Source: a virus
Direction: 5' to 3' (one strand)
Virus record (IMG/VR): IMGVR_UViG_3300010413_000629
Location: 1-24,096 of that record
Length of the DNA: 24,096 nt
How positions within the stretch are numbered: the first letter of the stretch is position 1; every line of letters starts with the position of its first letter. Shown piece by piece: positions 1 to 23,751 of this stretch. The notes under the pieces are model-generated. The model saw only the letters and a list, made by a program, of their open reading frames with translations, was not told the origin of the DNA and made no database searches. The position numbers and the translations under genes are program-made.

Positions 1-222
1 GAGAAGAAGTTCGCAACAATCAAGGCAGTCATCTCCTCAGATGAGGAATTTTGGACTATGTTCGAACATCCTATTGACTCCTCTCAAACATGGAGTCCAA
101 AGGCTAGAGAGCAAGCAGAACTAGAAGCAGAGCAGACTAAAGACGTTACCAATTGGGACGGAGAAATTGAGGATGAAGAAGAGGAGGAAGAAAATGAACA
201 AATAGAAATGAACTTGGCATGA
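1..222 (+). CDS. 3' end of an acidic phage protein (partial)
   Basis: An open frame enters from the left edge and ends at TGA 220-222, so only the last 73 residues are visible. The end is strongly acidic, with a long Glu/Asp run (IEDEEEEEEN) close to the C-terminus. Acidic tails of this kind occur on phage ssDNA-binding and replication proteins, but nothing here identifies the family, so I leave the function open. The last codons overlap the -24/-12 promoter-like site at 215-230. The gene belongs to the same rightward set as what follows. Confidence 0.75.
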   Translation, partial: EKKFATIKAVISSDEEFWTMFEHPIDSSQTWSPKAREQAELEAEQTKDVTNWDGEIEDEEEEEENEQIEMNLA

Positions 223-230
223 TTCTTGCT
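215..230 (+). promoter_or_regulatory. Candidate sigma-54 (-24/-12) promoter P1
   Basis: TGGCATG-ATTC-TTGCT matches the sigma-54 consensus TGGCACG-N4-TTGCW at all defined positions but one (T for C in the -24 box). GG (216-217) and GC (228-229) are exactly 12 bases apart, and the site is preceded by T, like the other three copies in the window. It straddles the stop codon of the upstream gene. The predicted transcript would begin near 241 and carry the HNH gene and the sigma-54 activator gene, giving the activator a possible positive-feedback loop. This is inferred from sequence only. Confidence 0.7.
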
Positions 231-240
231 ATCATATTAC

Positions 241-260
241 AGTGTATGAGCACCTACACT
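241..260 (+). promoter_or_regulatory. 5'-end stem-loop of the P1 transcript
   Basis: AGTGTA (241-246) pairs perfectly with TACACT (255-260) across an 8-base loop. The stem begins at the +1 position predicted from P1 (12 bases past the C of the -12 element). A 5'-terminal hairpin could protect the message. It would also bury the ATG at 246, which favours the ATG at 270 as the HNH start. Six base pairs is modest, so it could be chance. Confidence 0.35.
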
Positions 261-269
261 TGGAAGAAT

Positions 270-719
270 ATGCCACTAACTGTAACTGAGGATGGAAAAA
301 TATTCTGTAATGGAAAGGAGAAATTTCAATCTGTATATAAAAATAAAAGAAATAGACGTTCAATATGCACGGATCAAGGAAATCAGTATGTACATAGAGT
401 AGTCTGGGAACACTTCTATGGAAAGATTCCTTCTGGCTATTGTCTCCATCACAAGGATGGAAATGCTTCTAACAATCATCTCTCCAACTTAGAGGTAATG
501 CCACATGGCGCTCACACTAAGAAGCACATTGAAGAAGATGGACCTACAAGTATAACATTCTTGACAGATAAAGAAATAGAAGAAATAAAATCTAGTGCTG
601 AGTTTCAAAGAGTAATAGCAAAAAAATATAGTATCTCTCAGCCCTATGTTAGTATGATAAAGAACAACAAGAGGCTATCAAACTATGATAAAGATAAAAT
701 CTCAAGAGGATTGTGCTAA
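270..719 (+). CDS. HNH endonuclease with C-terminal helix-turn-helix (homing type)
   Basis: This 149-residue protein is of the freestanding homing-endonuclease kind common in phages. An N-terminal TEDGKIF segment resembles the 'VseDGrV' lead-in of such enzymes. The HNH core spans about residues 42-86: VHRVVWEH, then LHHKDGN (H60, H61, D63, N65), NNHLSNLEVM (N69, N73), and H79/H82/H86. The last third (about 98-135, LTDKEIEEI...ISQPYVSMI) looks like a helix-turn-helix that would contact DNA. I chose ATG 270 because GGAAG lies just before it; ATG 246 falls inside a hairpin and ATG 219 lies inside promoter P1. The 3' end overlaps the activator gene by 35 bases. The target site is unknown, and it need not be active. 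Confidence 0.85.
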   Translation: MPLTVTEDGKIFCNGKEKFQSVYKNKRNRRSICTDQGNQYVHRVVWEHFYGKIPSGYCLHHKDGNASNNHLSNLEVMPHGAHTKKHIEEDGPTSITFLTDKEIEEIKSSAEFQRVIAKKYSISQPYVSMIKNNKRLSNYDKDKISRGLC

Positions 720-1488
720 GGAATATCAGAGACTACTAGACGAAACTGGCTATAAAAAATCCGGTGATCCTGAGTTTGATCGGATGATGGAATTTCATCA
801 TCTAACAGGACTAGTAGGAAACTCGACTGAGAGAGCACTGAATAGGATTATTACTAGATGCCCTCAAGTGATAGAGATCAAGAAGCGATTAAAGATTCTA
901 GCAACTGTGAATGATCCAGTACTACTGACTGGAGATTCTGGCACGGGCAAAGAACTTGCAGCTAAAGTACTTCATGGAGAGCGCACTGGAATCTTTTGCG
1001 CTATTAATTGTAGTGCAGTTGTGGAGAATCTTATTGAGTCAGAACTATTTGGACATGTTAAGGGAGCATTTACTAGCGCACATGTGGATAAGGATGGATT
1101 AATTGCACAAGCATCAGGAGGTAGTTTATTTCTTGATGAGATTAATTCTGCGTCTAAGTCATTCCAAGCTAAGTTGCTTAGAGTAATCGAGGAAGGAGAG
1201 TATAGGCGAGTGGGATCTGCATCTGTAGAGTCAACAGACTGTAGATTCATCTTCGCATCTAACTCTACAACTCTTAGTGAATTAAGGAGAGACTTCTATT
1301 ATCGCATATCTACATTTCAGATAGATCTACCTAATCTAGTATCAAGAGGTGATGACTATAAGCTTATCGCGGAAGAATGTGGCTATCAAGATTGGATGGG
1401 AGCAATTCCAGATGAGGTATTCGAGGGCAACATTCGATCACTTAAAGCTTGGATACGTCGCCAGATAGTTTATGGTAAGCTAATATAG
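685..1488 (+). CDS. Sigma-54 activator (bEBP-type AAA+ ATPase), ATPase domain only
   Basis: This 267-residue protein carries the AAA+ core of the bacterial enhancer-binding protein family, which remodels closed sigma-54 RNA polymerase complexes by ATP hydrolysis. Visible in order: Walker A GDSGTGKE (83-90), the sigma-54 contact loop GAFTSA (127-132; canonical GAFTGA), Walker B SLFLDE (147-152), sensor I in ASN (191-193), arginine-finger segment LRRDFYYRIS (200-209), and sensor II in GNIRSL (248-253, R251). About 75 residues precede the core with no recognisable receiver, GAF or PAS domain, and no Fis-type DNA-binding helix-turn-helix follows it. Such proteins (FlgR of Helicobacter and CtcC of Chlamydia are precedents) can act from solution. 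The ATG lies inside the HNH gene, with AAGAGG about 10 bases upstream. Promoter P1 lies upstream and P2 directly follows. A non-transcriptional AAA+ role is possible. Confidence 0.9.
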   Translation: MIKIKSQEDCAKEYQRLLDETGYKKSGDPEFDRMMEFHHLTGLVGNSTERALNRIITRCPQVIEIKKRLKILATVNDPVLLTGDSGTGKELAAKVLHGERTGIFCAINCSAVVENLIESELFGHVKGAFTSAHVDKDGLIAQASGGSLFLDEINSASKSFQAKLLRVIEEGEYRRVGSASVESTDCRFIFASNSTTLSELRRDFYYRISTFQIDLPNLVSRGDDYKLIAEECGYQDWMGAIPDEVFEGNIRSLKAWIRRQIVYGKLI

Positions 1489-1511
1489 CAGGTTGGCACG
1501 CTTCCTGCTAT
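1485..1511 (+). repeat. Inverted repeat enclosing promoter P2
   Basis: ATAGCAGG (1485-1492) pairs perfectly with CCTGCTAT (1504-1511) around an 11-base loop. It begins at the end of the activator gene. The loop holds the -24 box (TTGGCACG) and the right arm holds the -12 box (CTGCT) of P2. It could form a weak terminator-like hairpin in read-through RNA (the following bases, TGTTATAC, are not a real T-tract), or be an operator-like dyad. The other three promoter sites lack this dyad. Confidence 0.4.
1494..1509 (+). promoter_or_regulatory. Candidate sigma-54 (-24/-12) promoter P2
   Basis: TGGCACG-CTTC-CTGCT has a perfect -24 box and one mismatch in the -12 box (C for T). The GG and GC are 12 bases apart. 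It sits in the short gap after the activator gene. The predicted +1 is near 1520, leaving a leader of about 45 bases before the ATG at 1565, which has its own strong ribosome binding site. Because the activator is encoded immediately upstream, this is the clearest activator/promoter pairing in the window. Confidence 0.8.
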
Positions 1512-1564
1512 TGTTATACGGTGTTATGATACGAATAAAACAATCTAGCGGAGAGGTGGTAGAA

Positions 1565-2119
1565 ATGGGAAGAGACGTAGGATTATCAGAGAAAGAACTA
1601 GCTGCGATGAGGCGCAGCACTACGAGACCGTACTTCAATTACACTAATGGACTTCAAGGCAAAGCACTGTTAAAACAGATACAAGAACTAAACTATAGAG
1701 TATTCTATCCTGAAGCTATGGGAATGTCTCTCAGTAGTATGAAGCAGCGGATTTATAATTCAATAAACTTTGCTATAAAGTATCTTGATGATGATGTTCG
1801 TAGCTTAAGAGATGTGTGGAACAAGTGCAAGGTTAGAACTTTGGATGATAAGATAGAAATGTTTTATAATCCAGAAGCTATGACACTAACTTTAACTGAT
1901 ATACCTAAGCCTGATGCTGGAACAGAGATATTGAAGACAGAAATCATGACCAAGATCAAGGATTGGGTAACGGCAGCCAAACCTATGGAGAAGCTAGAGA
2001 TGCTAGTAGCAGTGGGAGGATCTGTAAGAGAGGAAGTAAATAACTATATCGCATCTCTTGGATCAGCGTGGATAGGTAAAGCTTATCCAGATAGAATAAT
2101 CATAATCCGTAGAAGCTAA
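1565..2119 (+). CDS. Hypothetical phage protein, 184 aa, first gene after P2
   Basis: I do not recognise the family. The product is mostly alpha-helical and mixed in charge, with a central stretch (SLSSMKQRIYNSINFAIKYL) and a basic C-terminal IIIIRRS. No membrane segment or signal peptide is visible. The frame can be extended upstream (ATG 1526, TTG 1493), but GGAGAGGTGG ends about 5 bases before ATG 1565, and the predicted P2 transcript starts near 1520, so I take 1565 as the start. A strong ribosome binding site plus its own promoter suggests high early expression. TAA at 2117-2119 is followed within a few bases by the next gene's ribosome binding site. Confidence 0.8.
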   Translation: MGRDVGLSEKELAAMRRSTTRPYFNYTNGLQGKALLKQIQELNYRVFYPEAMGMSLSSMKQRIYNSINFAIKYLDDDVRSLRDVWNKCKVRTLDDKIEMFYNPEAMTLTLTDIPKPDAGTEILKTEIMTKIKDWVTAAKPMEKLEMLVAVGGSVREEVNNYIASLGSAWIGKAYPDRIIIIRRS

Positions 2120-2122
2120 TAG

Positions 2123-2130: not shown

Positions 2131-2135
2131 CTACT

Positions 2136-2465: not shown

Positions 2466-3332
2466 ATGGATAATAGAGATATAAAGCCTGAAATAAGAGT
2501 TGATTCATCTCTTCTTCGAGTGTCAGGATGTAGAAGGAGAGTTAAGTGGATGCTGGAAGGCTATCATGAAACATCTAATCCTAATGCTATAGTAGGAGAT
2601 GCTATTCATAAGTATCTGCAGTATTCTTCTCATGGAGATAAAGATGCAAAGATAAAAGTTCTAAATAATTATTCTGGTCCAGATACTTCAATGATATTGA
2701 ATGCAATAACAGCATTGGAGATTTCTGGAGGAGCAATTCCAAAGCCTACTACACTTATCGGAAACATATCCGCAACAGAGATCTACTTTAAGAAGAACAT
2801 AAGTAAACTCGACGATCCTTATAATATCTCTGTGTGCGGCACGATTGATAGAATCAGTTTCGAAGATGGATGTGTGCAAGTTATAGATCTAAAGACTACA
2901 CGCAAGTACGATCAAGAGAAGTACTTCTCTGAGTTCAATACTGATCCACAACCATTGTTTTATATGTGGTATCTGTGGAAGTATGGCAAGGACATTCTTA
3001 ATCCAGTGGAGTGGTCGGCTATTCAAGAAGGAAAGCTAATGGCTAGAATTGCTGCATTGTTTCTTACGCAGAAGCCAATGCCTAAGCTTAGACTATCTCC
3101 GCCGATTACTTACTCTCCGAATCATCTAGCAGAGTTTGATGCCTATCTATGCTATGAAGCTATACCTAGAATAGAAGATGCGCTGGAGAATCCTAGTAAA
3201 GATGGACTAGCTCTTAACCTATGCTCGAATCAATATTGCCCATTCACTTTCTGTTGCATAAGAGATGAAAGTATTATTGATGCGATGCCAAAGACTGAGG
3301 AGGGATGGAATCCTGCTACATGGAGACAATAA
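2466..3332 (+). CDS. PD-(D/E)XK nuclease, RecB/Cas4-like, with probable Fe-S cysteines
   Basis: This 288-residue protein has the hallmark order of the PDDEXK_1 / RecB-nuclease superfamily: an early His (GDAIHKYLQ, H48), TIDRI (D128), VQVIDLKTT (D141-x-K143) and a following Gln motif (DPQPLFYMW, Q162). One Cys near the N-terminus (C22 in SGCRRR) and a C-terminal set (C253, C258, C263, C264 in LCSNQYCPFTFCC) are arranged like the cysteines that hold a 4Fe-4S cluster in AddB, Dna2 and Cas4. Expected activity is metal-dependent DNA end processing. Together with the Sak4-like ATPase and the SSB-like protein downstream it forms a plausible recombination set. It is not evidence of CRISPR: no array or other cas gene is present. 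ATG 2466 lacks a strong ribosome binding site. Confidence 0.88.
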   Translation: MDNRDIKPEIRVDSSLLRVSGCRRRVKWMLEGYHETSNPNAIVGDAIHKYLQYSSHGDKDAKIKVLNNYSGPDTSMILNAITALEISGGAIPKPTTLIGNISATEIYFKKNISKLDDPYNISVCGTIDRISFEDGCVQVIDLKTTRKYDQEKYFSEFNTDPQPLFYMWYLWKYGKDILNPVEWSAIQEGKLMARIAALFLTQKPMPKLRLSPPITYSPNHLAEFDAYLCYEAIPRIEDALENPSKDGLALNLCSNQYCPFTFCCIRDESIIDAMPKTEEGWNPATWRQ

Positions 3333-4225: not shown

Positions 4226-5005
4226 ATGTACATACCAGAAGGAACACAAGACAGCCAGGCAGCAACACACTTTCGGCTTGCAATTCTAGGAGAAGCAGGC
4301 ACAGGAAAGACTACTTCTGCGCTTACGTTTCCGAATCCTTATGTGATAGACTTCGATCATAAACTTCCGGCGGGAATTCCTAGTGCACCATTTTGGAATG
4401 CTGACTTCGTTAAACGTCTAGTGAAGCCAGTGTCTGGACTTATTCCACCGAATCGTAGAGATGCACTGAAAATCTGGCTGAAGAATAATGTAGAGGAGTT
4501 TCTTCCAGAGCAAACACTAATCCTTGATTCGTGGACTATGGCGCAGCATGGGTTTGATGAGCAGACCAACTTCGAGATTCCGAATAGAGATATATCGGAT
4601 GAGAACTGGAAGTTCTATAGGAAGAAGCTGATGTGGAGTACACTCATAGCGGACTATCTGAAGCGAGCTAAGTGCAATGTTGTAGTGATAGCACATCTGC
4701 AGAAAGAGTATGATCCTAATGGTAATTGGGTAGGCAAATACTCTCCATTGCAAGAAGGTAAATTCTCAGAAGCTATGCCAGCATTCTTCACGGACTTCAT
4801 TAGACAGTTAGCAATACCAGAAGTTAAAGATCCAAAGACAGGAGTAGTTACGTCAACAAAGTATATATGGAGAATTAAACCTGATAGACAGTTCTCATCA
4901 TTCGTGCATGTGAAAACTGATACAATTGAGATTCCTGCAAAGTATGAAGAACTAGAAAGAGTCATTCGGAAAGCTTCTGATGTTGGCACGAATCCTGCTA
5001 ACTAG
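4226..5005 (+). CDS. Sak4-like RecA-fold ATPase (AAA_24 type), ssDNA annealing/recombination
   Basis: This 259-residue protein has Walker A LGEAGTGKTT (21-30, K28) near the N-terminus, then NPYVIDFDH, Walker B QTLILDS (96-102, D101), and a strand ending in NVVVIAHLQKEYDP that resembles the sensor region of phage RecA-core ATPases. This layout fits the Sak4 / AAA_24 group, which in phages works with an SSB to anneal or pair single strands. The gene next to it (5059) encodes the SSB-like protein, and a PD-(D/E)XK nuclease lies upstream, which supports the role. GAGGA sits about 9 bases before ATG 4226. Its last codons overlap promoter P3. An alternative is a different replication-associated P-loop ATPase. 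Confidence 0.82.
   Translation: MYIPEGTQDSQAATHFRLAILGEAGTGKTTSALTFPNPYVIDFDHKLPAGIPSAPFWNADFVKRLVKPVSGLIPPNRRDALKIWLKNNVEEFLPEQTLILDSWTMAQHGFDEQTNFEIPNRDISDENWKFYRKKLMWSTLIADYLKRAKCNVVVIAHLQKEYDPNGNWVGKYSPLQEGKFSEAMPAFFTDFIRQLAIPEVKDPKTGVVTSTKYIWRIKPDRQFSSFVHVKTDTIEIPAKYEELERVIRKASDVGTNPAN
4984..4999 (+). promoter_or_regulatory. Candidate sigma-54 (-24/-12) promoter P3
   Basis: TGGCACG-AATC-CTGCT is almost the same site as P2: perfect -24 box, C for T in the -12 box, exact 12-base GG/GC spacing, TTGGCACG core and CTGCTA end shared. It lies in the last codons of the ATPase gene and predicts a transcript starting near 5010, upstream of the SSB-like gene. SSB proteins are needed in bulk, so a dedicated promoter makes sense. 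Confidence 0.78.
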
Positions 5006-5058: not shown

Positions 5059-5616
5059 ATGAGTGATAAACAAGAACCATCAATCAAACTAGCGGATGCA
5101 GCACTGGGCGGAGATGTTAAGATCCCCACGAATAGATACCAGTTGCACGTCAAAGCGGCAGAATCCACTCTCAGCAGAAAGGGCAATCCTATGGTTGTCC
5201 TTACTTGCGAGATTATCAGTCCGGATACTGTAGAGTTTGCCGGTGAAACTATTGCAGTTCAAGGTAAAGAAGTCAGATACTACCTCTCACTGAGTAACGC
5301 TGCGGCAGGAATCTTCAAGCAGACTATGACTAAGCTAGGTCTGCTGGAGTCTTTGGATCAGCAGCTTACTCTTGCAGAGTTGGCTGAGAACTTCCCGCTT
5401 GAGATCTTCAATGGTCTCACGTTTGAGGCAGTTCTCTCTAGCGAGGAGAATGTCAAGCGACAAGATCCTACTCCTGAACAGCTAGCTGCAGGACAAACAC
5501 AAGGAGATCCTATCCTTGATTCAAACGGACAAGAACTAAAACTTGGCTGGATTATTCGAGCCAATCTGGCCAATATCATTCCAGGTTCTGCGGGTAGAAT
5601 CGAAGAGGCATACTAA
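5059..5616 (+). CDS. Probable ssDNA-binding protein (phage SSB-like)
   Basis: This 185-residue protein begins MSDKQEPSIKLADAALGGD and continues with a beta-rich region (IPTNRYQLHVKAAES...KGNPMVVLTCEI) of the type seen in phage single-strand-binding and DUF669-like proteins, which often follow a Sak-type ATPase. It ends with an acidic IEEAY, typical of SSB tails. No Cys and no membrane segment. ATG 5059 follows the A/C-rich leader; no canonical ribosome binding site is present. It has its own promoter candidate (P3) and a strong stem-loop behind it, suggesting a separately controlled transcript. The assignment is by fold impression and context, so moderate. Confidence 0.65.
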   Translation: MSDKQEPSIKLADAALGGDVKIPTNRYQLHVKAAESTLSRKGNPMVVLTCEIISPDTVEFAGETIAVQGKEVRYYLSLSNAAAGIFKQTMTKLGLLESLDQQLTLAELAENFPLEIFNGLTFEAVLSSEENVKRQDPTPEQLAAGQTQGDPILDSNGQELKLGWIIRANLANIIPGSAGRIEEAY

Positions 5617-5697: not shown

Positions 5698-5940
5698 ATG
5701 CCAATACTAATCCGGTCGATCATGTATGTAGATGCTACTGGAATTACTAGATCGGCAATTCTTACTGGAAAAGCTCCAATAAGATATTTCTATTTAGCGT
5801 CTAGAGTACCAGATAGAGAACCACTTAACTTGCATTGTAGCATGATAGTTACTCCAGGCTACACTACTTCTGATTACGATGCCAGCAATAAGAACTTTGC
5901 CGCGGAAACCTTACAACGGAATAACCATCCTCCTAGATAA
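5698..5940 (+). CDS. Hypothetical protein, 80 aa, between SSB-like and polymerase genes
   Basis: Open frame from ATG 5698, right after the stem-loop, to TAA 5938-5940, overlapping the polymerase N-terminal gene by 62 bases. The product (MPILIRSIMYVDATG...) is not recognised. No Shine-Dalgarno precedes ATG 5698 or the in-frame ATG 5722, so the start is uncertain. Codon choice is like the neighbours (many AGA, CTA, ATA codons), which supports it being real. It fills the only gap in the replication run. Confidence 0.5.
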   Translation: MPILIRSIMYVDATGITRSAILTGKAPIRYFYLASRVPDREPLNLHCSMIVTPGYTTSDYDASNKNFAAETLQRNNHPPR

Positions 5941-7288
5941 AGGTTCTAGATTTGATAAGTATAATTTGTGTGGTGGTATTGCAGGAAACTATCTAAGAGA
6001 AGCATTACTTCCGTATAATCTAGATCATTGTGATAGACAGACACTAATAGCAAAAGCTAAACTACTTCCCAACACTAAGCTAGTATTTCTCATGGGAGAG
6101 CGAGTACTAGAAAGAGTTGGAAAATATAATCTATATCAGAATCGCGGAACTCCATTTAAACAGGATGGAGTTATTTATATTCCTACCTTTCCATGTCAAG
6201 AGTGCATGGATGTAAGAGACTATGAACTAGGAGAACTCGGAAAGATACCTGATGAAAAACAAGAAGATGAAAAAGACAGAAGTAAAACAGCGCGAAGTAA
6301 CTTCCGCTTCTGGATGTTCAAAGACATCGCCAAAGGACTTCGCCTATTGGCCGACCCAAAACCTAGAACACGACTTGAAGTCTTCAATATTAGACCAACA
6401 CTTGAGGATGCACTGCAATATCTCAGATCTGGAGGAGAGAGGTGTTACTTTGACATTGAAACGCACCCTAGCGGAACTCTACAATGCTTCTCGGTCGCGA
6501 TAGATGAAGGGATGGTTTATGCAATACCAATATATAACTATCACAATTCCCTCCATTATGGAGAACTAGGCACTTATAAAATACTTCAGACTCTAGCTTC
6601 TTGTCTGAATAAGATGTCCGTAGTGGTGCATAATAGCAACTTTGATCTTCCCTTTCTTTTTAACGAGTACAGAATTCCCTTTGGCAAGAAGATCGAAGAC
6701 ACTATGGTTATTAATAATCGCATATTTCCAGAGGCTGAGAAGTCACTAGCGCATTGCATTAGTTTATGGACAGATTATCCCTATCATAAAGGAGAAGGAA
6801 TCTTTGATCCACATACATTCAATGAAGAAGAACAGTTACTAAGATATAATGCAAGAGATGTTCACCGAATGCGGGACGTACTAAAGTATCAATATGAATA
6901 TGCACAACCGGACCCGGGAATGGTCAACTCTATTGAGCAGGCTAAGAAGTCACTATATCCACTACTGGTTGCATCCCTCACAGGTATCGAGATTGATACA
7001 GATGCGCTGGAAGTTAAAAGAAAGGAACTCGAACTCTATCTCAAACAGTACAAAAGAATTGCAGAAATCCTCTGCGGATTCGACATCAACCTTGCAAGCT
7101 CGAAACAGCTTGGAGAGTATCTCATTGGTAGATGCGGATACAAAGCAGTCAAGCTTTCAAGCTCAGGAAAGACTTCAGTCGATCACGAATCCCTTACGAA
7201 ATTGGGCAGAACATATTCCAATCCGATAATAAGATTAGCGATAGCCTATAAAGCAAAACAGAAACAACTAGGATTTATAAAGCTATGA
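5879..7288 (+). CDS. DNA polymerase I family, N-terminal piece (UDG-like + 3'-5' exonuclease + thumb)
   Basis: This 469-residue protein is the front part of a family A DNA polymerase. Residues 1-115 resemble the uracil-DNA-glycosylase fold fused to some phage polymerases (GIAGNYLREALLPYN..., KLVFLMGERVLE, RGTPF, YIPTFP), though catalytic residues cannot be confirmed. The proofreading exonuclease is intact by motif: FDIETH (D192, E194), HNSNFDLPFL (N252, D256), YNARD (Y323, D327). A thumb follows (LVASLTGIEIDTDAL...), and the protein stops at IRLAIAYKAKQKQLGFIKL, equivalent to the 'ileyR.laKLkstY' helix of Pol I. The polymerase palm and fingers are encoded separately at 8239-9135. The stop overlaps the ligase start (ATGA). 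No intein motif is seen at the end. Confidence 0.9.
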   Translation: MPAIRTLPRKPYNGITILLDKGSRFDKYNLCGGIAGNYLREALLPYNLDHCDRQTLIAKAKLLPNTKLVFLMGERVLERVGKYNLYQNRGTPFKQDGVIYIPTFPCQECMDVRDYELGELGKIPDEKQEDEKDRSKTARSNFRFWMFKDIAKGLRLLADPKPRTRLEVFNIRPTLEDALQYLRSGGERCYFDIETHPSGTLQCFSVAIDEGMVYAIPIYNYHNSLHYGELGTYKILQTLASCLNKMSVVVHNSNFDLPFLFNEYRIPFGKKIEDTMVINNRIFPEAEKSLAHCISLWTDYPYHKGEGIFDPHTFNEEEQLLRYNARDVHRMRDVLKYQYEYAQPDPGMVNSIEQAKKSLYPLLVASLTGIEIDTDALEVKRKELELYLKQYKRIAEILCGFDINLASSKQLGEYLIGRCGYKAVKLSSSGKTSVDHESLTKLGRTYSNPIIRLAIAYKAKQKQLGFIKL

Positions 7289-8073
7289 AATTAGACGTAA
7301 TGCTAGCACATGAGTACTCGCCGGACAAGCTAAAGTTCCCTTGCTATTGCCAACCAAAATTGGATGGTGTTAGAGCAATCAGTGTAGATGGAAAGCTATA
7401 CTCTAGAACGGGAAAACGCTTCACAACTTTAAATCATATCGAGAAGTATCTTCCCGTCAAGTGCAGAATAGATGGAGAAATCTACAACCAGGCTTACCGA
7501 TTGCAGGAGATTAATGCTATGGTTAATCCCAATCGTAAGCTGCATCATGAAGATGTAACTAGTCTATCTTACTGGATGTTCGACATCATTAATGAGAACG
7601 AACAAGTAGATAGACTTCGCACTCTAGAAGCTCTTGGACCTATTCCGCATACTCTAATAATTCCAACTATGTCTTGCGCTAGTCTATCAGATGTAGAAGG
7701 TTGGAATTCTTTCTGGTTAGAGCATGGCTATGAAGGAAGTATGATAAGATTCCCATTAGGAAAGTACACTAATGGAAGATCCAATAATCTACTGAAGTGG
7801 AAACCTTTCAAGGACTCAGAGTTTAGATGCACTGGAATTAACTATGGAGAGAGAATAGGTAAGCATCGAGACTGTCTTGGAAGCATACAGTGTGTCACTT
7901 CTGAGGGTAAACTATTCAAAGTTGGCTCTGGTTTTTCTGACCAGCAGAGAGTGGACTTCATCGAACATCCTGATGAAATTATAGATCATCAAGTCACAGT
8001 TCGATACGATCAGCTTAGTAGAGATAACATTCCTTTGCGGCCAAGATTTATAGCAGTTAGAAGGAATCATTGA
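7285..8073 (+). CDS. ATP-dependent DNA ligase
   Basis: A compact 262-residue ligase that seals nicks, using ATP to adenylate the active-site lysine. Motif I is QPKLDGVR (K25, D27, G28, R30), Ia SRTGK (40-44), III RIDGEIY (61-67), IIIa YWMFD (96-100), IV YEGSMIR (149-155) and V LLKWKPF (169-175, K171 and K173). About 85 residues after motif V form the OB-fold domain. There are no extra N- or C-terminal domains, as in small phage and chlorella-virus ligases. It starts in the ATGA overlap with the polymerase front piece and lies between the two polymerase pieces. All key residues are present, so it should be active. Confidence 0.95.
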   Translation: MKLDVMLAHEYSPDKLKFPCYCQPKLDGVRAISVDGKLYSRTGKRFTTLNHIEKYLPVKCRIDGEIYNQAYRLQEINAMVNPNRKLHHEDVTSLSYWMFDIINENEQVDRLRTLEALGPIPHTLIIPTMSCASLSDVEGWNSFWLEHGYEGSMIRFPLGKYTNGRSNNLLKWKPFKDSEFRCTGINYGERIGKHRDCLGSIQCVTSEGKLFKVGSGFSDQQRVDFIEHPDEIIDHQVTVRYDQLSRDNIPLRPRFIAVRRNH

Positions 8074-8075
8074 CC

Positions 8076-8276
8076 ATGCTTTATCGTATAGTTGCACCAC
8101 ACTTTGTGGCTGGTATTATCTCTTATAATAATACAATAAGAGATACTGCTCCTATTGTGCATTATATGCGCGGATGGACTCTTGATAGAGCCAAGAACTA
8201 TTGTAGGTATAAGAGGTGGTCAATCCAACAAATAGAGCATGAAGATATACACTCAGTACAAGCCAGCAGGGACTAA
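8076..8276 (+). CDS. Small phage protein, 66 aa, between ligase and polymerase C-terminal piece
   Basis: ATG 8076 lies two bases after the ligase stop (a TTG at 8070 in frame is the alternative). The product MLYRIVAPHFVAGI...TAPIVHYMRGWTLDRAKNYC has the look of a small, widespread phage/bacterial protein type of unknown function (short beta strand, then 'API..M.GW.LdrA..YC' helix). It overlaps the polymerase C-terminal start by 38 bases, so both frames are used there. Probably translated together with the ligase. Confidence 0.65.
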   Translation: MLYRIVAPHFVAGIISYNNTIRDTAPIVHYMRGWTLDRAKNYCRYKRWSIQQIEHEDIHSVQASRD

Positions 8277-9135
8277 GAGCTTCCGTCTCTCTGCTGCTAA
8301 GTTAAAGGATAGACCATCTGTAAATATCCAGCAGATTGATGACGAGTTCTTCAAGCTTCTAAAGCCAAGAGAGGGAATGTGTTTTGTCAAGGTAGATCAG
8401 GCTGGTGCGGAGTCTAGAATTGTAGCCTATCTTGCTAGGCGCGGAAACTATAGGAGATTGATAGAGCTTAAAGTAAAGCATCATACCTATGTTGCACTTC
8501 AACTATATCCTGAGATCTTTGGTAAACAGTATAAAGGAGTGCCTCCAGATGAACTGATTAAACTTCCTAACTGGATAGAACTTAGAGATACAGTAAATTC
8601 TTCTGGTAATCCATACGCTATAGCTAAGATGACAGTGCACGCTTCGTCTTATGGTATTGGTCCAGGAGAACTATCAGACAGAATTATGGATAAGTCTAAT
8701 GGCAAATTATACTTATCTCTTAATGAAGCTAAGAAAGTACTAGACACATTCTATCGAACTTTTCCAGAACTAGCAGAATGGCAAGGGCTAGTAATTAAGA
8801 CTGTGAAACAGTATAGAGAACTGCGGAATCTATTTGGCTATCCGAGAAAGTTCGAAGGACAGTTTCATGATAGATACTTCAAGGAAGCTCTGTCATTTAT
8901 TCCGCAGTCAACTGTCGCCTGTTTGAACAATATAGTGTTCACGGAATTACAGGAGGAAATAGAATCCGGAAGGTTGGCAGGAAACTTGCTGCTAAATGTA
9001 CACGATAGTATAGGCATGGAAGTACCAATAGCAGATAAGGAGAAAGCAATCGAAGTTATACAGAGACTTTATGCATCTCACGAACTAAAAGGTTGGGATA
9101 ATACTATCTTCCGAATGGAGACGGAAGTTCAATAA
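8239..9135 (+). CDS. DNA polymerase I family, C-terminal piece (palm and fingers)
   Basis: This 298-residue protein holds the catalytic core missing from the gene at 5879. It opens with IYTQYKPAGTKSFRLSA (matching 'vhts..q..taTGRLSS' of Pol I). Motif A is VKVDQAGAESR (D53, E58, R60), motif B in the O-helix is KMTVHASSYG (K130, H134, Y138, G139), and motif C is NVHDSIGMEV (H255, D256). Both catalytic Asp residues are present. Position 134, where Pol I has Phe762, is His; the acidic residue after the motif C Asp is replaced by Ser. The two pieces together cover the family with only about 8 residues unaccounted for. An in-frame TAG sits 6 bases upstream of ATG 8239, so this is a true separate start; the ribosome binding site (AAGAGGTGG) is rather far. 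Confidence 0.92.
   Translation: MKIYTQYKPAGTKSFRLSAAKLKDRPSVNIQQIDDEFFKLLKPREGMCFVKVDQAGAESRIVAYLARRGNYRRLIELKVKHHTYVALQLYPEIFGKQYKGVPPDELIKLPNWIELRDTVNSSGNPYAIAKMTVHASSYGIGPGELSDRIMDKSNGKLYLSLNEAKKVLDTFYRTFPELAEWQGLVIKTVKQYRELRNLFGYPRKFEGQFHDRYFKEALSFIPQSTVACLNNIVFTELQEEIESGRLAGNLLLNVHDSIGMEVPIADKEKAIEVIQRLYASHELKGWDNTIFRMETEVQ
8975..8990 (+). promoter_or_regulatory. Candidate sigma-54 (-24/-12) promoter P4 (inside a gene)
   Basis: TGGCAGG-AAAC-TTGCT has a perfect -12 box and one mismatch in the -24 box, with correct 12-base spacing and the leading T shared with P1-P3. It lies within the coding sequence of the polymerase C-terminal piece, about 160 bases before the helicase gene, which it could drive. 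Because it is fully inside a gene it is the least certain of the four. Confidence 0.45.
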
Positions 9136-9150: not shown

Positions 9151-10320
9151 ATGATCTCATCATGGCTAGAGCTCACAAGCAACTTAATATCACCGATTCC
9201 CTTCAAGACAATGGCTTTCTATACTATGATAGGAGCTTGCATGGAGAGAAGAGTATGGATAGGATCTATAGATTGGATGCCATTGTTTCCAAATCTCTAC
9301 ACAATAATGGTAGGTCCACCTGCTAGTGGTAAGAGTCTAACACTTAAAGCGGCATACTCAGTACTTAGCGAAGTAACAGATGGAGATGAGGAGAGATTTC
9401 CTGTAGCTCCAGACGCAACAACATTTAGAGCACTACTAGATACTATAAATGGAAACTCAAGAGCAATTAAGAATGGGGAAGGAGATAGATATGAATACAT
9501 GTCAACTCTCTTCCTTCTTGAAGAGATTAGCAGTCTTTTTAGGAGAAATGAAGAAGATGTATCCAGGCTTCTACTACAAACTTACGACGCAAACAAGAAG
9601 TACGAATACTCCACAAGTACTAGAGGACATATCAGACTTCGAAATACATGTGTCTCAATACTCGGATGCACAACTAAGGATTTTCTCGACTTGTGTTTTA
9701 GTGATCAAGTTCTGCTTGAAGGATTCGCAAGTAGAACTATCTTTGTATTTGCCGACTCTCCAGCCTTTAGAACATCTATCATCCCTCCTCTTAATGTTTC
9801 ACAACTGGAACATAAGATAAAGATTCAGCACCATATTGCCAAGCTAGGTAATCTCTACGGTCCTGTAGATAGTTCTGCTATAGATGCTCTGGTTGAAGAA
9901 TGGTGGCAGGATGAAGCTAGTGTAACAACTAATACTCATCCTAAGCTAGCACATTATTATGGAAGAAAGAATATCCATATTAAGAAGCTAGCAATGTGCA
10001 TACACTTTAGCAAATCTGTGGAGATGAAGATTGGCGCGGAGTGTTTTGGAGAAGCACTGGCAGTACTAGATAGTGTAGAAACTACAATGCACGAGGCAAT
10101 ATCTATGGGAGGAAAGAACGAATTAGCTCCAGAGGCTAGACAAATCCATTCGTGGATTAGATCCAATCCAGGCACTAGCTACACAGACATCCTGCTTAAC
10201 TTCTATGACTCTAATCCAAAAGGAGAGCAGGGCATACAAGAGATCTTGCAAGCCCTGCTTAATATGAAGAAGATTAAGGAGACGATTACTAAAGCAGGAA
10301 GAACCTTCTTACCGAAATAG
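9151..10320 (+). CDS. Replicative helicase, DUF3987-like P-loop ATPase
   Basis: This 389-residue protein has Walker A GPPASGKS (55-62) preceded by LYTIMVG, and Walker B LFLLEE (120-125), with an N-terminal helical lead-in and a segment ASRTIFVFAD (arginine-finger-like). This is the pattern of DUF3987-type helicase/primase-helicase proteins that unwind DNA at phage forks. The last 70 residues (EARQIHSWIRSNPGTSYTD...LLNMKKIKETITKAGRTF) look like a winged helix. AGGAAA lies 8 bases before ATG 9151. It is the last gene of the rightward module and ends 10 bases before the end of the convergent virion module. Candidate promoter P4 is upstream. No separate primase is visible in the window. Confidence 0.8.
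   Translation: MISSWLELTSNLISPIPFKTMAFYTMIGACMERRVWIGSIDWMPLFPNLYTIMVGPPASGKSLTLKAAYSVLSEVTDGDEERFPVAPDATTFRALLDTINGNSRAIKNGEGDRYEYMSTLFLLEEISSLFRRNEEDVSRLLLQTYDANKKYEYSTSTRGHIRLRNTCVSILGCTTKDFLDLCFSDQVLLEGFASRTIFVFADSPAFRTSIIPPLNVSQLEHKIKIQHHIAKLGNLYGPVDSSAIDALVEEWWQDEASVTTNTHPKLAHYYGRKNIHIKKLAMCIHFSKSVEMKIGAECFGEALAVLDSVETTMHEAISMGGKNELAPEARQIHSWIRSNPGTSYTDILLNFYDSNPKGEQGIQEILQALLNMKKIKETITKAGRTFLPK
10226..10259 (+). repeat. Inverted repeat near the end of the rightward module
   Basis: AGCAGGGC (10226-10233) pairs perfectly with GCCCTGCT (10252-10259). The space between them contains a second dyad (CAAGA-GA-TCTTG). It lies inside the helicase gene about 60 bases before its stop and near the convergence point. 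No T-tract follows on either side (TAATATG after it), so it is not a standard intrinsic terminator. Confidence 0.3.
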
Positions 10321-10330
10321 AACTCCCTTT

Positions 10331-13300
10331 CTATCTTTCTAATCCCATCACTTCTTGAAGAGAAGTTCTTTCTATTCCCACTTTTGGAATTAGCTGTTGC
10401 TTCATTCTATTGGCCATTACCTGCTGCAGATAAGTAGCCATCAGAGCCTTGCCTGCTTCTGGACCTCTCGTTTTAGTAAACCAGTTCAGATAGTTAAGAG
10501 CTTCCGAAGACTCTGATGGCATCCAAGTTATCGGCATATCTTTTAGTCCTTCCATCCTTGAAGCCATAGCTTGTGGAGTAGGAGAGAGATTCTGCGCTCT
10601 CTGCATAGCTCTCTGAGCCAATCCTCCTGCCTCTTCTAAGTCTGTAGTTCTCTTGAACTCCTGTTCTTCTGTTACTGCTACATTAGATCTCAATGGTATT
10701 TGTGGACCTAAAGGATAGCCAGAAAGGAATCGGTATGTTCGGAGATCTCTTCCACGTCCTCTTCGTTCGATGTCTTCTTTCTTCTTCTGAAAGGGTCCGC
10801 CAATAGTCTCAGCAGCACCATACCTAGAGAGAAGAGACATAATAACTTTGAATGATTGGATATTATTATCTGCCCAATCAAGAGCTAGATCCACGGTATC
10901 CATAGGATCTAGTTCTCTCTCCAATGCTGCTGTTACTAACTGCGATGCATCTGCGATAGTATTGGCTATCATTGAGAATGCAGGAACAGGAATGGCATCT
11001 TGTGGCGCAGCTTTGTATAGAGTTACATCTGTAAATCCTCGAAGCAATTCTGACATCCATCCGACTAATCCTGTTGCGGCAGCTAGTCCAAGGAACTTGT
11101 AGGTTAGAATCTCTGCATAAGTCTGTGCATCCATTCCCTTAGCAGCAACAATCTCTTCCCAAGATGGCTGCTTTCTTTCTGTTCCTGTAGCAAGAGTTCG
11201 CATTGACTCAATAACTCCACCGGCTATTGGCAGACCCATCAAGCTAAATACTGCTGGCTTGAAGTTGCCTTGCATTGCTGCTTGGACAATGTTACGATTG
11301 AACTTAACCATCTGTCCAATGTTCCAGCGCAGAAGTCCTACTAGTGGAGATAGTGGTCCAGCATATGCCCATCCAGGCAGATCTCTGAAGTCGTAAGTTC
11401 CTTGAACCTCTTCTGTAAATCTTGCGGCGATCTCTTGGAGTTCTGCTTGCGTGAATTTCTTATCTCCACGCTTTATCATGTTCTCGAATTGATCTCTTCC
11501 GAATCTTCGAAGAAATGTCTCAGCTTCTTTCTTTACTTTTCCTGTACCTTGGAAGTATAGATCTGTGAAGTCATCAGCAATGTATCTTCCTACTCCATAT
11601 GTGAGTGCTCTTGATTGTCCTTCAAGGAAGTTTCTACCTTGGAGCGAGTTATATTGATCGCGTATTACTCGGATAGCTTGGCTAGCTTCAGTAGTTGCAC
11701 CTACCAGAGTTTCAAGCTTTCCAATATCTCGGATTACTCCTTGTGCGGTAGCTTCTTTATAGTACTGCTTCGTGTTTTGAACTGAATGCGCCCAAGCTTT
11801 AGCGAACTGTCCAAAGCCTCTTACATGTTGGAGTGTGAGAAATGGAGCATTAGCTAAGTCAACTGCACCAGTAAGCGGACCAAGAACAATGGCTCTTCCA
11901 ATAAGATTGAAATTCTCTGCTACTTGTGCTGCTCCAGGATTCTCATCCTTAGCTAGCATGTAGCGAGAAATTCTCTTGAACTCCTCAGTGCCAGACATTA
12001 TTTTATCAAGCGACCAAGGTTCTCCGCTAGGTGTATCATACATTTTATTGTATAGCGGATTGTTCATTAGATCATCATATGCGAACGCTCTAGCTACACG
12101 TTCCATAGATCTATTCAATCTTCGGAATGGATTAGATTCTACCCAACTATCTGGTATTCCTAATCCTCCAGCCTTAGTCAATGGTCCGAAGTCTGGACCA
12201 ATATCAGGAGAGTCAAGCTGTCGAATATTCTCTAATAGTCCTCCGAAGTTTTCATTGGCCAGCTTTAGAGCTTCCTCCTCAGTAGCTCCATGCATCTTCA
12301 TCGCTCTATCTTTTTGTACTTTGATGAATTGCTTCCTTAGCTGCTTTCCTTTAATACTTCCAGGCTCTTGAGATAACACTTGGTAAATATCTCTACCAAT
12401 GATACGAGGGATAAAGAATTCACTTACTTCTCCCTTCTTCATCTTGGTTCGAGCTTGAGTAGATCTAACATTTCTGTTAGCTCCAATGTCTTTCCAAATG
12501 GCCATTAATCCTTTAGCCATCTCCTGCTCATTAGGAGTTAAAGATTCAAGCGGAACAGGATTAGGTCTTCCATATAGAGCATCTTCAGAGGCTCCATAGG
12601 CATAGTCCATAAACTTAGTTACTTTGCCTAGAGATACTGCTGCTGGAGAAGTAGGATTCTTTTGCAGTAGATCCATCGTGGTCTTGGCCATTCCAGTCTT
12701 TGGAAGGTATTTACCATATAGATCATTCAGCCTTGAATATAGATCTCCTCGATACATTCTATGGCTAGCTGCCCAACTCTCCATTACATGCTGTGCATCA
12801 TTTCCAGCTTCTTCAGATACTGTATTTGCTATTCTATCTCGCAGAGATTCAGAATCAGATCGAAATAGCTTTCTCGCTACATCAGATAGTTTGAACTGAT
12901 CCTTGCTGGTTATTGGCGCGCTGTCTAGATCTGTTCTCGCGGCATCTCTTGGAACAGCAGGAACAAATCCAGGAAGTTTATTGTTGACAAATGGCTGATC
13001 GAATTCTCCTTGGTAGGTCAGAAGATCATAGACTTCTTTGTCGCTGAGTCCATCAAGTCCTCCGCCGAATAGAGATTTAACTTTAGCTTTTAGTGCGGAC
13101 CAGAATCTCTCTGGCTCTGACTTTACTCCCTTCTCTTTAGTTCTTTCAGAGAGTTCTTTAGCTAGAGTTTCCACTACGAATTCATCAAGCTCGTCGAAGC
13201 TGGCTATTGGCCGTCCAAGCTTTCCTTCAAGAATTTTCTGCATTCGACCATACATCTCCGACATGTAGCGGACTTGTTTAGCATTTCCGAATCCACGTAT

Positions 13301-15181
13301 CCAGTCTATCCAATGGTGGAATGCTTCATGAATTGGAGAGGTAGCTTTAGCATCTCCATACAGAGACATGTAACTCCAAGGCTCTCCAGGAAACCATACT
13401 CTAGCGAATGCGTTAGGATTGGTTTCGTTCATTCTGAAGATGTCTCGGTCTGTATATCCTTTGCGATGCAAGAACTCGTTCAGCCAAGTCATGCGTACAG
13501 CATTGTCCTCGATCTCTTTAAGAGTTTCCGCTGTATTTGCAATCTGCTGGAGCTTGAAGTAACCTTTAGCTCTAGCTTCTTCTAGTGCGAAGTTGAAGAA
13601 TTTAACCTCAGGAGTTCCTCTCCATCTCCCGATGTGTCCTGCTCCGTGCTGGATTCGATCTAGAACGTATAGGACGAATCTTCGATTGAATTCTTTATTG
13701 AAACTCTTCTCTACCCAACTAGCTTTCTCAGATTGAAGTCTAGCTTTTATCTTAGGATCAAGCATCTTCCGATACTCTTGAACATCCTTGATGCTCATAG
13801 ATCGCTCTATTACTCTTAGCGCGGATGCTTCAGAGAGCTTTCCACCATACTGCTGATCAAGATCAAAAGCTTGTTGTCGAAGTCTAGTATTACCACCAGA
13901 CATCATTTTCTCATATTGATCTATTGTAGCATCATCAATCTTCTTGACTCGATTCTTAATAGTCTGAGCAGTCTTGTTAGCTTCGGATGATAGTCTAGAA
14001 GCTACCTTCTTTCCTTCAGTAGTGGAAGTATCTACTCCACCCTGACGATTTAGATTCTCAGTTACTCCATCAATATACTCTGTATCAGTTGGTCCAGAAT
14101 CAGCTAGAGATTTAAAGTATTCATCATATGCGGCTGCTTGCTCATCAAGAATAGGTTCTCTAGGAGGAGGCTTCCTAGTAACTGGTGTAGGAGCTTCAGG
14201 AACTGCTGTAGGCCTAATCGGAGATGGAGCAGTAGGAGTAGGTTCAGTTGGAGGAAATGTTCTTCCATATGGTCCAACTCCACGCGGAGGAGTTACTGGA
14301 GGAGGAGGCTGAGTTAATCCATATGGACCTAAAGGTCTGAATCCTCCAGTTGTAACTCCAGAAGGTCTGATTGGTCCGGCTCCAGGCGCAGGAGGAACAG
14401 CAGAAGGATATGTTACTCCACCTAGTCCTTCTCCTGACCATCCAGGCGGTACTTGTCTTCCAGTAATAGGAGGGGTCTTAGGCCCAAATGTAGGAAGTGG
14501 TTCAAGCCCAATCTTCGGACCTAAGCCCCAAGGCTGTGTAAAGAATGTTCCGAATGCGGCAGCGGCAGCTAATCTCTCAGGAGAGAACTGTCCGGTAGCA
14601 TATTGATTCGCACCTTCTATTCCTGTTTCTACTGCTGCGGATGCTGCTGAGTTTAATAGTATTGCTTTGCTCGCAGGAGATATAGGACTTCCAGGGACTT
14701 TAACGAACATCCTACTTAGTGCTTTAGGAGCAGCAAGAGTAGGTCTTAGAAATGCTGCGGCAGGAGCTACTCCTCCAACAAATGATGCTAGAGGATGTGC
14801 TTCTTGAGATCTAGCTAGATAGTCTTCGTAACTTTCAAAAGTGTCTTCTCCTAGTACTTTAGGAGCTACCCAGTCTTGTACTAGTCCTGCGCCGAAACCT
14901 AACCCTAAGCCTCCAATCAATGCTCCACCGGCAGTACCAATAGGTCCAAGAGGTGCTCCTATTGCTGCACCTTTAACAGCACCTAGAAAGCCTGCTCCTG
15001 TAGGTATTGCATTTCTAGCGGCGTGTGCAGCAACAGTTCCCATCATACCGGGAACATCAGTGTCTGGAGAGAATACCTCCATCTGAGCTTCCATCTGCAT
15101 CTTCGAAAGCTCAGCACGCCGCTTGAATGCGGCTCTTATCTCGTCATCCGTATATCTGATTGGAGCATTAAGGAGTGACAT
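10331..15181 (-). CDS. Giant internal virion / DNA-ejection protein with HExxH metalloprotease-like motif
   Basis: A 1616-residue protein at the end of the virion module, in the place of T7 gp16. Residues about 50-110 are Gly/Ala-rich and hydrophobic (GAAIGAPLGPIGTAGGALIG) and could insert in a membrane. Residues about 230-345 are a Pro-rich linker with repeated GPYG. A zinc-peptidase-like signature HEAFH (H618, E619, H622) is followed by an acidic helix (DEFVVETLAKE, E667/E671) that could give the third ligand. The rest is helical, with long charged segments and more hydrophobic stretches near 1370-1450. I see no clear transglycosylase motif. Such proteins are packed in the capsid and ejected to form a channel for DNA; the peptidase motif may cut capsid or host proteins, or be structural. 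The start forms TAATG with the upstream stop. Confidence 0.75.
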   Translation of the reverse strand: MSLLNAPIRYTDDEIRAAFKRRAELSKMQMEAQMEVFSPDTDVPGMMGTVAAHAARNAIPTGAGFLGAVKGAAIGAPLGPIGTAGGALIGGLGLGFGAGLVQDWVAPKVLGEDTFESYEDYLARSQEAHPLASFVGGVAPAAAFLRPTLAAPKALSRMFVKVPGSPISPASKAILLNSAASAAVETGIEGANQYATGQFSPERLAAAAAFGTFFTQPWGLGPKIGLEPLPTFGPKTPPITGRQVPPGWSGEGLGGVTYPSAVPPAPGAGPIRPSGVTTGGFRPLGPYGLTQPPPPVTPPRGVGPYGRTFPPTEPTPTAPSPIRPTAVPEAPTPVTRKPPPREPILDEQAAAYDEYFKSLADSGPTDTEYIDGVTENLNRQGGVDTSTTEGKKVASRLSSEANKTAQTIKNRVKKIDDATIDQYEKMMSGGNTRLRQQAFDLDQQYGGKLSEASALRVIERSMSIKDVQEYRKMLDPKIKARLQSEKASWVEKSFNKEFNRRFVLYVLDRIQHGAGHIGRWRGTPEVKFFNFALEEARAKGYFKLQQIANTAETLKEIEDNAVRMTWLNEFLHRKGYTDRDIFRMNETNPNAFARVWFPGEPWSYMSLYGDAKATSPIHEAFHHWIDWIRGFGNAKQVRYMSEMYGRMQKILEGKLGRPIASFDELDEFVVETLAKELSERTKEKGVKSEPERFWSALKAKVKSLFGGGLDGLSDKEVYDLLTYQGEFDQPFVNNKLPGFVPAVPRDAARTDLDSAPITSKDQFKLSDVARKLFRSDSESLRDRIANTVSEEAGNDAQHVMESWAASHRMYRGDLYSRLNDLYGKYLPKTGMAKTTMDLLQKNPTSPAAVSLGKVTKFMDYAYGASEDALYGRPNPVPLESLTPNEQEMAKGLMAIWKDIGANRNVRSTQARTKMKKGEVSEFFIPRIIGRDIYQVLSQEPGSIKGKQLRKQFIKVQKDRAMKMHGATEEEALKLANENFGGLLENIRQLDSPDIGPDFGPLTKAGGLGIPDSWVESNPFRRLNRSMERVARAFAYDDLMNNPLYNKMYDTPSGEPWSLDKIMSGTEEFKRISRYMLAKDENPGAAQVAENFNLIGRAIVLGPLTGAVDLANAPFLTLQHVRGFGQFAKAWAHSVQNTKQYYKEATAQGVIRDIGKLETLVGATTEASQAIRVIRDQYNSLQGRNFLEGQSRALTYGVGRYIADDFTDLYFQGTGKVKKEAETFLRRFGRDQFENMIKRGDKKFTQAELQEIAARFTEEVQGTYDFRDLPGWAYAGPLSPLVGLLRWNIGQMVKFNRNIVQAAMQGNFKPAVFSLMGLPIAGGVIESMRTLATGTERKQPSWEEIVAAKGMDAQTYAEILTYKFLGLAAATGLVGWMSELLRGFTDVTLYKAAPQDAIPVPAFSMIANTIADASQLVTAALERELDPMDTVDLALDWADNNIQSFKVIMSLLSRYGAAETIGGPFQKKKEDIERRGRGRDLRTYRFLSGYPLGPQIPLRSNVAVTEEQEFKRTTDLEEAGGLAQRAMQRAQNLSPTPQAMASRMEGLKDMPITWMPSESSEALNYLNWFTKTRGPEAGKALMATYLQQVMANRMKQQLIPKVGIERTSLQEVMGLER

Positions 15182-15531
15182 TATTTTAGAAAGCGGTTAA
15201 GGGGATTCAATGAACGGAAATAATCTTCAATAGTCTTGTTCTCTCTGAATCCCGTGTTTATATCTTCCATCTCTCCAAGATTCTGTCTACCTTTAGCTAA
15301 GAATATTCTATCCTGCTCAGACATTCCCATATTGGAATTTACCATATTGGGATTTGTCATTCCAAAGAGCATCTCTGGTGGACCTAGACGTTTGATGTCT
15401 AAAGGCTCATTTGGATCTTCTTCTTGCTTTCCTCCTCCACCGCCAAGAGCTTTACCGGCCATCTTTCCTGCTAGCTTCTGCGCTAGCTTGTTCTTTAGAA
15501 AACCTAGTAGTGCTGCGTAGAAGTAGATCAT
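15181..15531 (-). CDS. Small virion-associated protein, 116 aa
   Basis: Starts in an ATGA overlap with the 305-aa gene and ends in a TAATG overlap with the giant protein, so all three are probably translated as a chain. The N-terminus (YFYAALLGFLKNKLAQKLAGKM) is an amphipathic/hydrophobic helix followed by a Gly run (GGGGG) and an acidic/Asn-Met-rich middle. No family recognised. Its place among candidate internal virion proteins suggests a small membrane-interacting virion component. Confidence 0.7.
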   Translation of the reverse strand: MIYFYAALLGFLKNKLAQKLAGKMAGKALGGGGGKQEEDPNEPLDIKRLGPPEMLFGMTNPNMVNSNMGMSEQDRIFLAKGRQNLGEMEDINTGFRENKTIEDYFRSLNPLNRFLK

Positions 15532-16445
15532 GGTACGTAAGTAGGTTGGTTTATCCTTTTATTCAATTCTTGAAGATGTCTTTGTCTAGCACCTTCCATA
15601 GTCTGTGGAGCTTCTCCAAGATTAAGATTACCGAGTCCTCTTAAAAATTCAACTATAGGAAGTTGATTCTGTTGTATCCCATAATTTGGAATAGTTTCTC
15701 TTTCCGCTTGAGCCTCCATCATTTGCTGCTGAATTTTCGCTTTTTTACTAGCTACTTCTTGTTTTTGTTCCTCCGCTTGTTTACCTACTTTAGCCATAAA
15801 GTCCGAAGCTTCTTTCATACTATCAAACTGCTTCAAACTATGGCTAGGATAAGGCAAGAATCCTCCCATCTGATCAGATACAGCTTCAGAAGTTACTACC
15901 ATAACAGAACCATCTTCATTACGAATAATGGTAGAACTTCCCATAGGAATATTAATATTAGAGGGTGGTGTCCAACCACTCTTAAATAATCTCACTCTAG
16001 CTGCTTCTTTTGATGCTGGACTAGACTCAGGATCAAATAGAGTTTTAGCTGCATCATTTACTTCCTTCTTCTCTAACTTAGACTTCTTCTCCAATTCCTT
16101 CAAAGATAGCTTAGTCTTAAGTCTCTCTTGCTTTTGGGTTGCTTCTATATTTAAGGCACTATTTAATTGTGCTAGTGCTCTAGCATACTTATCTGCCTCT
16201 GCCATCTGCTCCAGTGTCTGCTGTCCTGCAAGCTGCTGTCTAGCCATTGCAGAGCTTCCAGAGATTCTCGCAGCTTCTCCCTGCATAGCAAGATCGTTGA
16301 GATAAGATACCTGCTGAGGGTAGAATATGGACTGTGCAACTGTAGGTACTCCTTCTCCGCGAGGATAACCTTCTCTTGGAAGTGGAGTCTTAGTGAGCTT
16401 ACCTAGTCCTCCAAGAAGTCCAGTAAGAAATGGATTCTGAGCCAT
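15528..16445 (-). CDS. Candidate internal virion protein, 305 aa, coiled coil
   Basis: A hydrophobic/Gly start (FLTGLLGGLGKL) is followed by long Ala/Gln/Lys-rich helical stretches (about residues 60-135 and 215-260, e.g. EEQKQEVASKKAKIQQQMM) typical of coiled coils in phage internal virion proteins. AGGA lies about 8 bases upstream of the ATG. It sits between the 284-aa protein and the giant protein, as T7 gp15 sits before gp16. No enzymatic motif is seen. The homology to gp15 is positional inference, not sequence evidence. Confidence 0.7.
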   Translation of the reverse strand: MAQNPFLTGLLGGLGKLTKTPLPREGYPRGEGVPTVAQSIFYPQQVSYLNDLAMQGEAARISGSSAMARQQLAGQQTLEQMAEADKYARALAQLNSALNIEATQKQERLKTKLSLKELEKKSKLEKKEVNDAAKTLFDPESSPASKEAARVRLFKSGWTPPSNINIPMGSSTIIRNEDGSVMVVTSEAVSDQMGGFLPYPSHSLKQFDSMKEASDFMAKVGKQAEEQKQEVASKKAKIQQQMMEAQAERETIPNYGIQQNQLPIVEFLRGLGNLNLGEAPQTMEGARQRHLQELNKRINQPTYVP

Positions 16446-16453
16446 AATAAATC

Positions 16454-17308: not shown

Positions 17309-17310
17309 AA

Positions 17311-20341: not shown

Positions 20342-20346
20342 TTAGA

Positions 20347-23154: not shown

Positions 23155-23155
23155 A

Positions 23156-23749: not shown

Positions 23750-23751
23750 AA

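Follow-up and report, generated by a model that had tools for sequence, protein, structure and literature searches.

A phage-encoded activator and the sigma-54 factor of the host very probably drive the middle and late promoters of the phage represented by IMG/VR virus record IMGVR_UViG_3300010413_000629 (24,096 bases, here called the window), which is a fragment and not a full genome. The RpoN holoenzyme stays closed until an AAA+ activator remodels it, and since sigma-54 polymerase is silent without such an ATPase, the arrangement would provide a very tight off/on switch. What can be established from the DNA itself is the domain make-up of the activator, the putative promoter sites, their conservation, synteny, and the co-occurrence of sites and activator. 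A broader reading, which we hold to be likely, is that a widespread phage family runs its whole middle and late programme on host sigma-54 through a virus-owned activator that needs neither sensor nor enhancer, a mode of control not previously described and one in which RpoN is a required host factor.

The rightward genes of the window (1-10320) encode an HNH endonuclease, the activator, an exonuclease, a Sak4-like ATPase, a two-gene polymerase with a ligase between its parts, and a DUF3987 helicase/primase (Table 1). No significant Pfam or PHROG matches were obtained for the leftward genes, and an Rfam search of the window found no element and no intron. In 15 relatives with long contigs, most of this gene set is present in the same order. 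The best explanation is that the window belongs to a tailed phage whose family is uncultivated and whose organization is LUZ24-like. Pseudomonas phage LUZ24 has a similar layout, with rightward early and replication genes, leftward structural genes and split polymerase genes, but it has annotated sigma-70 promoters, no activator, and a single one-mismatch match to the site described below in 45 kb. The family A polymerase is also split, with other genes in between, in G001, G002, G006, G008, G020, G021 and G025, and is one gene of ~790 aa in relatives such as G033, G039 and G017. The HNH gene probably starts at 246 or 270. For the gene after P2, a homologue of which occurs in relative L035 (E 2e-5), the longest ORF begins with a TTG at 1493, but the most likely start is the ATG at 1565; this ATG has a ribosome-binding site, GGAGAGGTGG, and lies 45 nt past the expected P2 transcription start. 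The name SSB-like rests on position alone, with no family match. The virion proteins of the family, among them the probable capsid protein and one of 1,600-2,300 residues, had no match in Pfam, PHROG or NCBIfam where tested; they are an undescribed structural module.

Table 1. Putative sigma-54 sites and predicted genes of the window.
Feature	Position	Strand	Evidence or remarks
P1, TGGCATGATTCTTGCT	215..230	+	1 mismatch; expected start ~241; precedes HNH gene and activator
HNH endonuclease gene	219..719	+	Between P1 and activator; Pfam HNH_3, E 1.4e-16; PHROG HNH
Sigma-54 activator, AAA+ only, 267 aa	685..1488	+	PF00158, E 3e-47; AF2 model; tree
P2, TGGCACGCTTCCTGCT	1494..1509	+	1 mismatch; 6 nt past activator stop; expected start ~1520; precedes gene 1565
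First gene after P2, 184 aa, function unknown	1565..2119	+	Ribosome-binding site and position
PD-(D/E)XK exonuclease (Cas4-like)	2466..3332	+	Family core gene; orthologues in relatives
Sak4-like annealing ATPase	4226..5005	+	Pfam/PHROG-type matches; orthologues in relatives
P3, TGGCACGAATCCTGCT	4984..4999	+	1 mismatch; last codons of Sak4-like gene; expected start ~5010; 59 nt before 5059
SSB-like small protein	5059..5616	+	Downstream of P3; orthologues at equal syntenic position
Family A DNA polymerase, two genes	5879-7288, 8239-9135 (span 5879..9135)	+	
ATP-dependent DNA ligase gene	7285-8073	+	Between the two polymerase genes
P4, TGGCAGGAAACTTGCT	8975..8990	+	1 mismatch; inside C-terminal part of polymerase, 160 nt before helicase/primase gene
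DUF3987 helicase/primase	9151..10320	+	Downstream of P4; orthologues in relatives
Virion/late genes	10331..24095	-	Cut off before capsid region; orthologues of several in relatives

The activator has the features by which the bEBP family is recognized, namely a PF00158 AAA+ domain with Walker A (GDSGTGKE), Walker B (LFLDEI), an arginine-finger segment (RRDFYYR) and sensor II (GNIR). The canonical L1 loop, which contacts sigma-54, is GAFTGA; the window protein has GAFTSA, one change away, which meets the L1-loop criterion as a variant whose activity has not been shown. Among the relatives the loop is GSFTGA (the commonest), GAFTGA or GSYSGA. The predominance of GSFTGA or GSYSGA over GAFTGA in the activators of L008-L085 is a signature of the phage family that may tune contact with host RpoN. 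The AF2 model was confident (pLDDT 87.9), with the first 50 residues uncertain. Its nearest PDB folds were all sigma-54 activators (closest NtrC4, NtrC1, LuxO and FleQ), every PDB match found by sequence was likewise a sigma-54 activator, and the viral AAA+ folds on record matched the model only remotely. There is no C-terminal Fis-type DNA-binding domain: the chain stops 16 residues past sensor II and no HTH family matched. Such a domain is usual in bEBPs, neither universal nor defining. No sensor (receiver or GAF) domain could be recognized.

When the window activator or its TubA-like protein was used as a single-sequence query, no close relatives were found. Relatives of the activator at 34-46% identity were found at 80 IMG/VR loci, nearly all of them likewise AAA+ only. 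A tree placed 31 phage activators, including that of the window, in one cluster with support of 92/94, which is under the strict mark. Gut phage DP SC_2_H4_2017 (MT121960) also has a bare sigma-54 AAA+ protein (304 aa, L007:7770-8684), but it lies on a separate branch beside a bacterial sequence, and no TGGCACG-N4-TTGCW sites were found in the 41 kb of this phage; its activator was apparently acquired independently. Because this protein groups with a bacterial one and away from the phage clade, phages probably captured a sigma-54 activator on at least two occasions. Most INPHARED matches to the activator were host chromosome contigs filed as phage, and these were used solely as bacterial references. 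CAKLQH02/CAKLQF02, AFYI/AGRM and several MT835-838 scaffolds are bacterial chromosome pieces of this kind (NtrC, AtoC, ZraR, RtcR and others), and such mislabelled entries inflate counts of phage sigma-54 regulators.

The initial annotation had reported a complete bEBP AAA+ core together with four plus-strand sites of the type TGGCACG-N4-TTGCW, and both were borne out: all the core motifs lie in ORF 685-1488, and the sites are at the positions given there, each with one mismatch. All four begin with TTGGCA and have C as the last spacer base, as had been noted. Dinucleotide shuffles gave a chance expectation of 0.10 sites per window, against which the annotation's own estimate of 0.2 was fair, and none of 100 shuffles reached four. 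The usual description of a sigma-54 promoter (GG at -24, GC at -12, fixed spacing, frequency above chance) is thus met. There was no further site in the window at two mismatches, and none at two or fewer in the leftward region, 10331-24095.

The check named beforehand asked whether activator-bearing relatives also have sites upstream of the same genes, and it was strongly passed. We counted a site when it lay within 300 nt upstream of a gene. The gene after the activator, which starts the replication operon, has a site before it in 41 of 49 cases at no more than one mismatch and in 48 of 49 at no more than two; for the probable major capsid gene the counts were 10/13 and 13/13. For a large late gene that precedes the terminase, the count was four of five. 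Elsewhere sites were rare, occurring upstream of 42 of 1647 other genes at one mismatch and before none of 70 activator genes. The order on the gene maps is activator, site, replication operon and, elsewhere, site, large late protein, terminase, portal, scaffold, site, capsid. In 16 contigs there were 17 exact sites, compared with 0.2 in shuffles, and 55 at up to one mismatch, compared with 6.3. The activator loci held 97 sites against three for the reversed pattern. With one record per 60%-identity activator cluster the numbers were 45 and zero; 13 of the 17 clusters had sites, and for the other four no site was found in the available DNA. Shuffles and reversed patterns together rule out chance or base composition as the cause. 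A few single-mismatch matches lie inside activator genes of relatives, near the Walker A region, and look like coding coincidences.

A second set of loci, fetched through the capsid gene alone and therefore independent of the activator, had a site before that gene in 45 of 60 cases and one distinct single-mismatch site elsewhere. A blind enumeration of gapped words also found GGCA-N7-TGCT to be the commonest in both promoter classes; it was present in 28 of 31 distinct capsid upstream regions and in all 16 regions of the other class, compared with at most 5 in shuffles.

Conservation before the same genes is met for the P2 and capsid classes, partly for P3 and P4, and not for P1. P2 is a strong candidate for a sigma-54 promoter, judged by a position after the activator that is kept in most relatives and thus family-wide. 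P3, which is well spaced from gene 5059, is a moderate candidate; the sites of other relatives lie before another gene of about the same size. For P4 the case is moderate to weak. A site is found at the same codon position in the divergent G020 and G021 and not in other relatives, and a coding coincidence is not excluded; intragenic sigma-54 promoters do exist in Salmonella (PMC3844500). The relatives have no site before the activator and hence no counterpart of P1, so there is only weak support for P1 as a promoter of the HNH gene and the activator in a positive loop. Its 16-mer is identical to one before the next gene in L041/L047. Since the window holds only the replication half, late (capsid) promoters of this phage are inferred from the relatives.

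No phage-encoded RpoN was detected in any of 32 records, in a search that did detect its positive controls; host sigma-54 must therefore be used, an inference made without transcription data. A search for T7-type RNA polymerase was also negative in all 32, and there the positive control likewise went undetected. The sole hint of a host is weak, being a matter of metagenomic binning. One relative, contig C112, was binned with a Deltaproteobacteria MAG (RA.bin139) that encodes RpoN and other activators; C112 encodes a bare activator of 245 aa and has a site 121 nt upstream of its capsid gene.

Related phages without the activator bear on how the sites should be read. Desulfofustis phage LS06-2018-MD01 and Caulobacter phage Kuura have the polymerase, helicase and exonuclease of the family (E down to 1e-74), and neither an activator nor a site at one mismatch or fewer was found in them. 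In the Desulfofustis phage, a gene with weak similarity (E 0.0013) to the one after the activator has TTGACA-N17-TATGGT upstream, which resembles a sigma-70 promoter. It remains conceivable, though improbable in our judgement, that the sites are real sigma-54 promoters mainly for host activators that respond to stress or nutrient signals, the phage protein only adding to or modulating their action. Phage promoters of the -24/-12 type could respond to host activators, and these are present in the single candidate host genome. However, 37 of 42 capsid-fetched records encode the activator (the remaining five are 20-25 kb fragments), the activator adjoins its first promoter, and related phages that lack it also lack the sites.

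We give still less credence to an AAA+ protein aimed chiefly at host genes for metabolic reprogramming, with phage promoters secondary. A protein without a DNA-binding domain should act on host sigma-54 promoters too, as DctD250 does in Salmonella (PMC3844500), but divergent phages keep sites upstream of their own replication and capsid genes, which speaks against this as its main role. That the ATPase has been repurposed for replication or packaging, and that chance or coding coincidence accounts for the sites, we regard as scarcely tenable. The variant loop GAFTSA, the PHROG label of "unknown function" for a related family and the location of P4 inside a coding region could be cited for it; against it are the shuffle, reversed-pattern, positional and blind tests, together with the fold and motifs, which are those of the sigma-54 clade and which viral AAA+ proteins on record match only distantly. 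GAFTSA also counts against our preferred reading, activation of middle and late promoters through host sigma-54, to the extent that its effect on sigma-54 contact is undemonstrated.

Under that reading an ordinary sigma-70 promoter would presumably drive early expression of the activator, because the relatives have no sigma-54 site before it. The protein would assemble as an AAA+ ring and act from solution; an AAA+ core alone activates without an enhancer in the case of DctD250 (PMC3844500). Column counts upstream of the sites showed nothing that stands out, although an enhancer was not systematically sought. The ring would then remodel host polymerase holoenzyme containing host RpoN, poised in the closed state at the phage -24/-12 promoters. 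The replication operon promoter just past the activator would fire, so that middle genes come on only after the activator is made; in relatives the same would hold for the capsid gene and for the operon of the large late protein and the terminase, each with its own promoter. ATPase activity, use of RpoN and timing are all inferred here, with no transcript, promoter or protein data. The initial annotation had proposed a private phage regulon run through host sigma-54. The regulon is supported by the conserved sites and by their absence from relatives without the activator, but "private" is too strong, because an activator with no DNA-binding domain should work from solution. By analogy, it could fire host sigma-54 promoters too, and host activators might fire those of the phage. 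With activator-promoter pairs conserved, the idea can be put to a direct test in E. coli. It would imply phages that depend on RpoN and a collateral induction of host sigma-54 genes in infection, and would make such phages a natural source of minimal activators.

Known routes of phage takeover include appropriated sigma-70 polymerase, anti-sigma factors, and sigma factors or polymerases of the phage itself. Ogr of phage P2 and MotA of phage T4 are phage factors that redirect host polymerase; like T4 gp33/gp55/gp45 (PMC2988020) they resemble the present protein in being made early and turning that polymerase towards middle or late promoters. They differ in acting on sigma-70 or a phage sigma, whereas the protein described here is an ATP-driven sigma-54 remodeller. 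Natural HTH-less sigma-54 activators are known in Helicobacter (FlgR) and Chlamydia (CtcC), but these are cellular proteins with receiver domains and signal input, and the phage proteins have neither. DctD250 and PspF(1-275) also consist of the AAA+ core alone and are constitutive, acting from solution without an enhancer (PMC3844500); they are laboratory truncations, whereas the phage core is a natural, conserved viral gene product. A late form of T4 polymerase has been likened to sigma-54 polymerase for its strict dependence on an activator (PMC2988020). A search of the open-access literature, which leaves out most subscription papers and preprints, turned up no phage activator paired with a sigma-54 regulon, and priority is not established. 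Bdellovibrio phage phi1422 was earlier said to carry a "sigma-54 regulator", gp46 (PMC3391216). We rejected gp46 (NC_019525, L213:24471-24800) as an activator; the 109-aa protein is of the Fis-type HTH kind and lacks an AAA+ domain, and its annotation as a "sigma-54-dependent transcriptional regulator", repeated in that paper, is a probable misannotation. A putative sigma-54-like protein of Pectobacterium phage Q19 (PMC7693777, HHpred E 0.67) was set aside as unrelated.

The capsid gene is so called as a probable identification, not a proven one. Its model was poor (pLDDT 41.6) and had no significant PDB match; the best eight matches were all phage capsid proteins. The order terminase-portal-scaffold-capsid agrees with the name, and the terminase, portal and scaffold genes were themselves named by size and order only. 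A marine-type subclade (L153, L154, L157, L166, L173, L180, L181, L189 and L191) has no site before the capsid gene, which may there be expressed from an upstream promoter.

Capsid mRNA leaders contain tandem hairpins with the loop AGGGCA, preceded by GCTTCT or GCTACT. They occur in L133-L192, no more than ~200 nt before the capsid gene (in L163, for example, at about 2870-2945), with two copies in 45 of 60 loci, and all lie either before that gene or, past the scaffold gene, at the end of a contig. Among 42 distinct units, pairs 2-4 are standard in 40, compared with shuffled means of 17.6-28.0, and there are strong compensatory changes. No Rfam match was found even at E <=1. The site-less subclade retains the hairpins; they persist where the sigma-54 site is lost and are therefore a separate feature, a candidate for a new leader RNA or protein-binding element and perhaps a translational operator.
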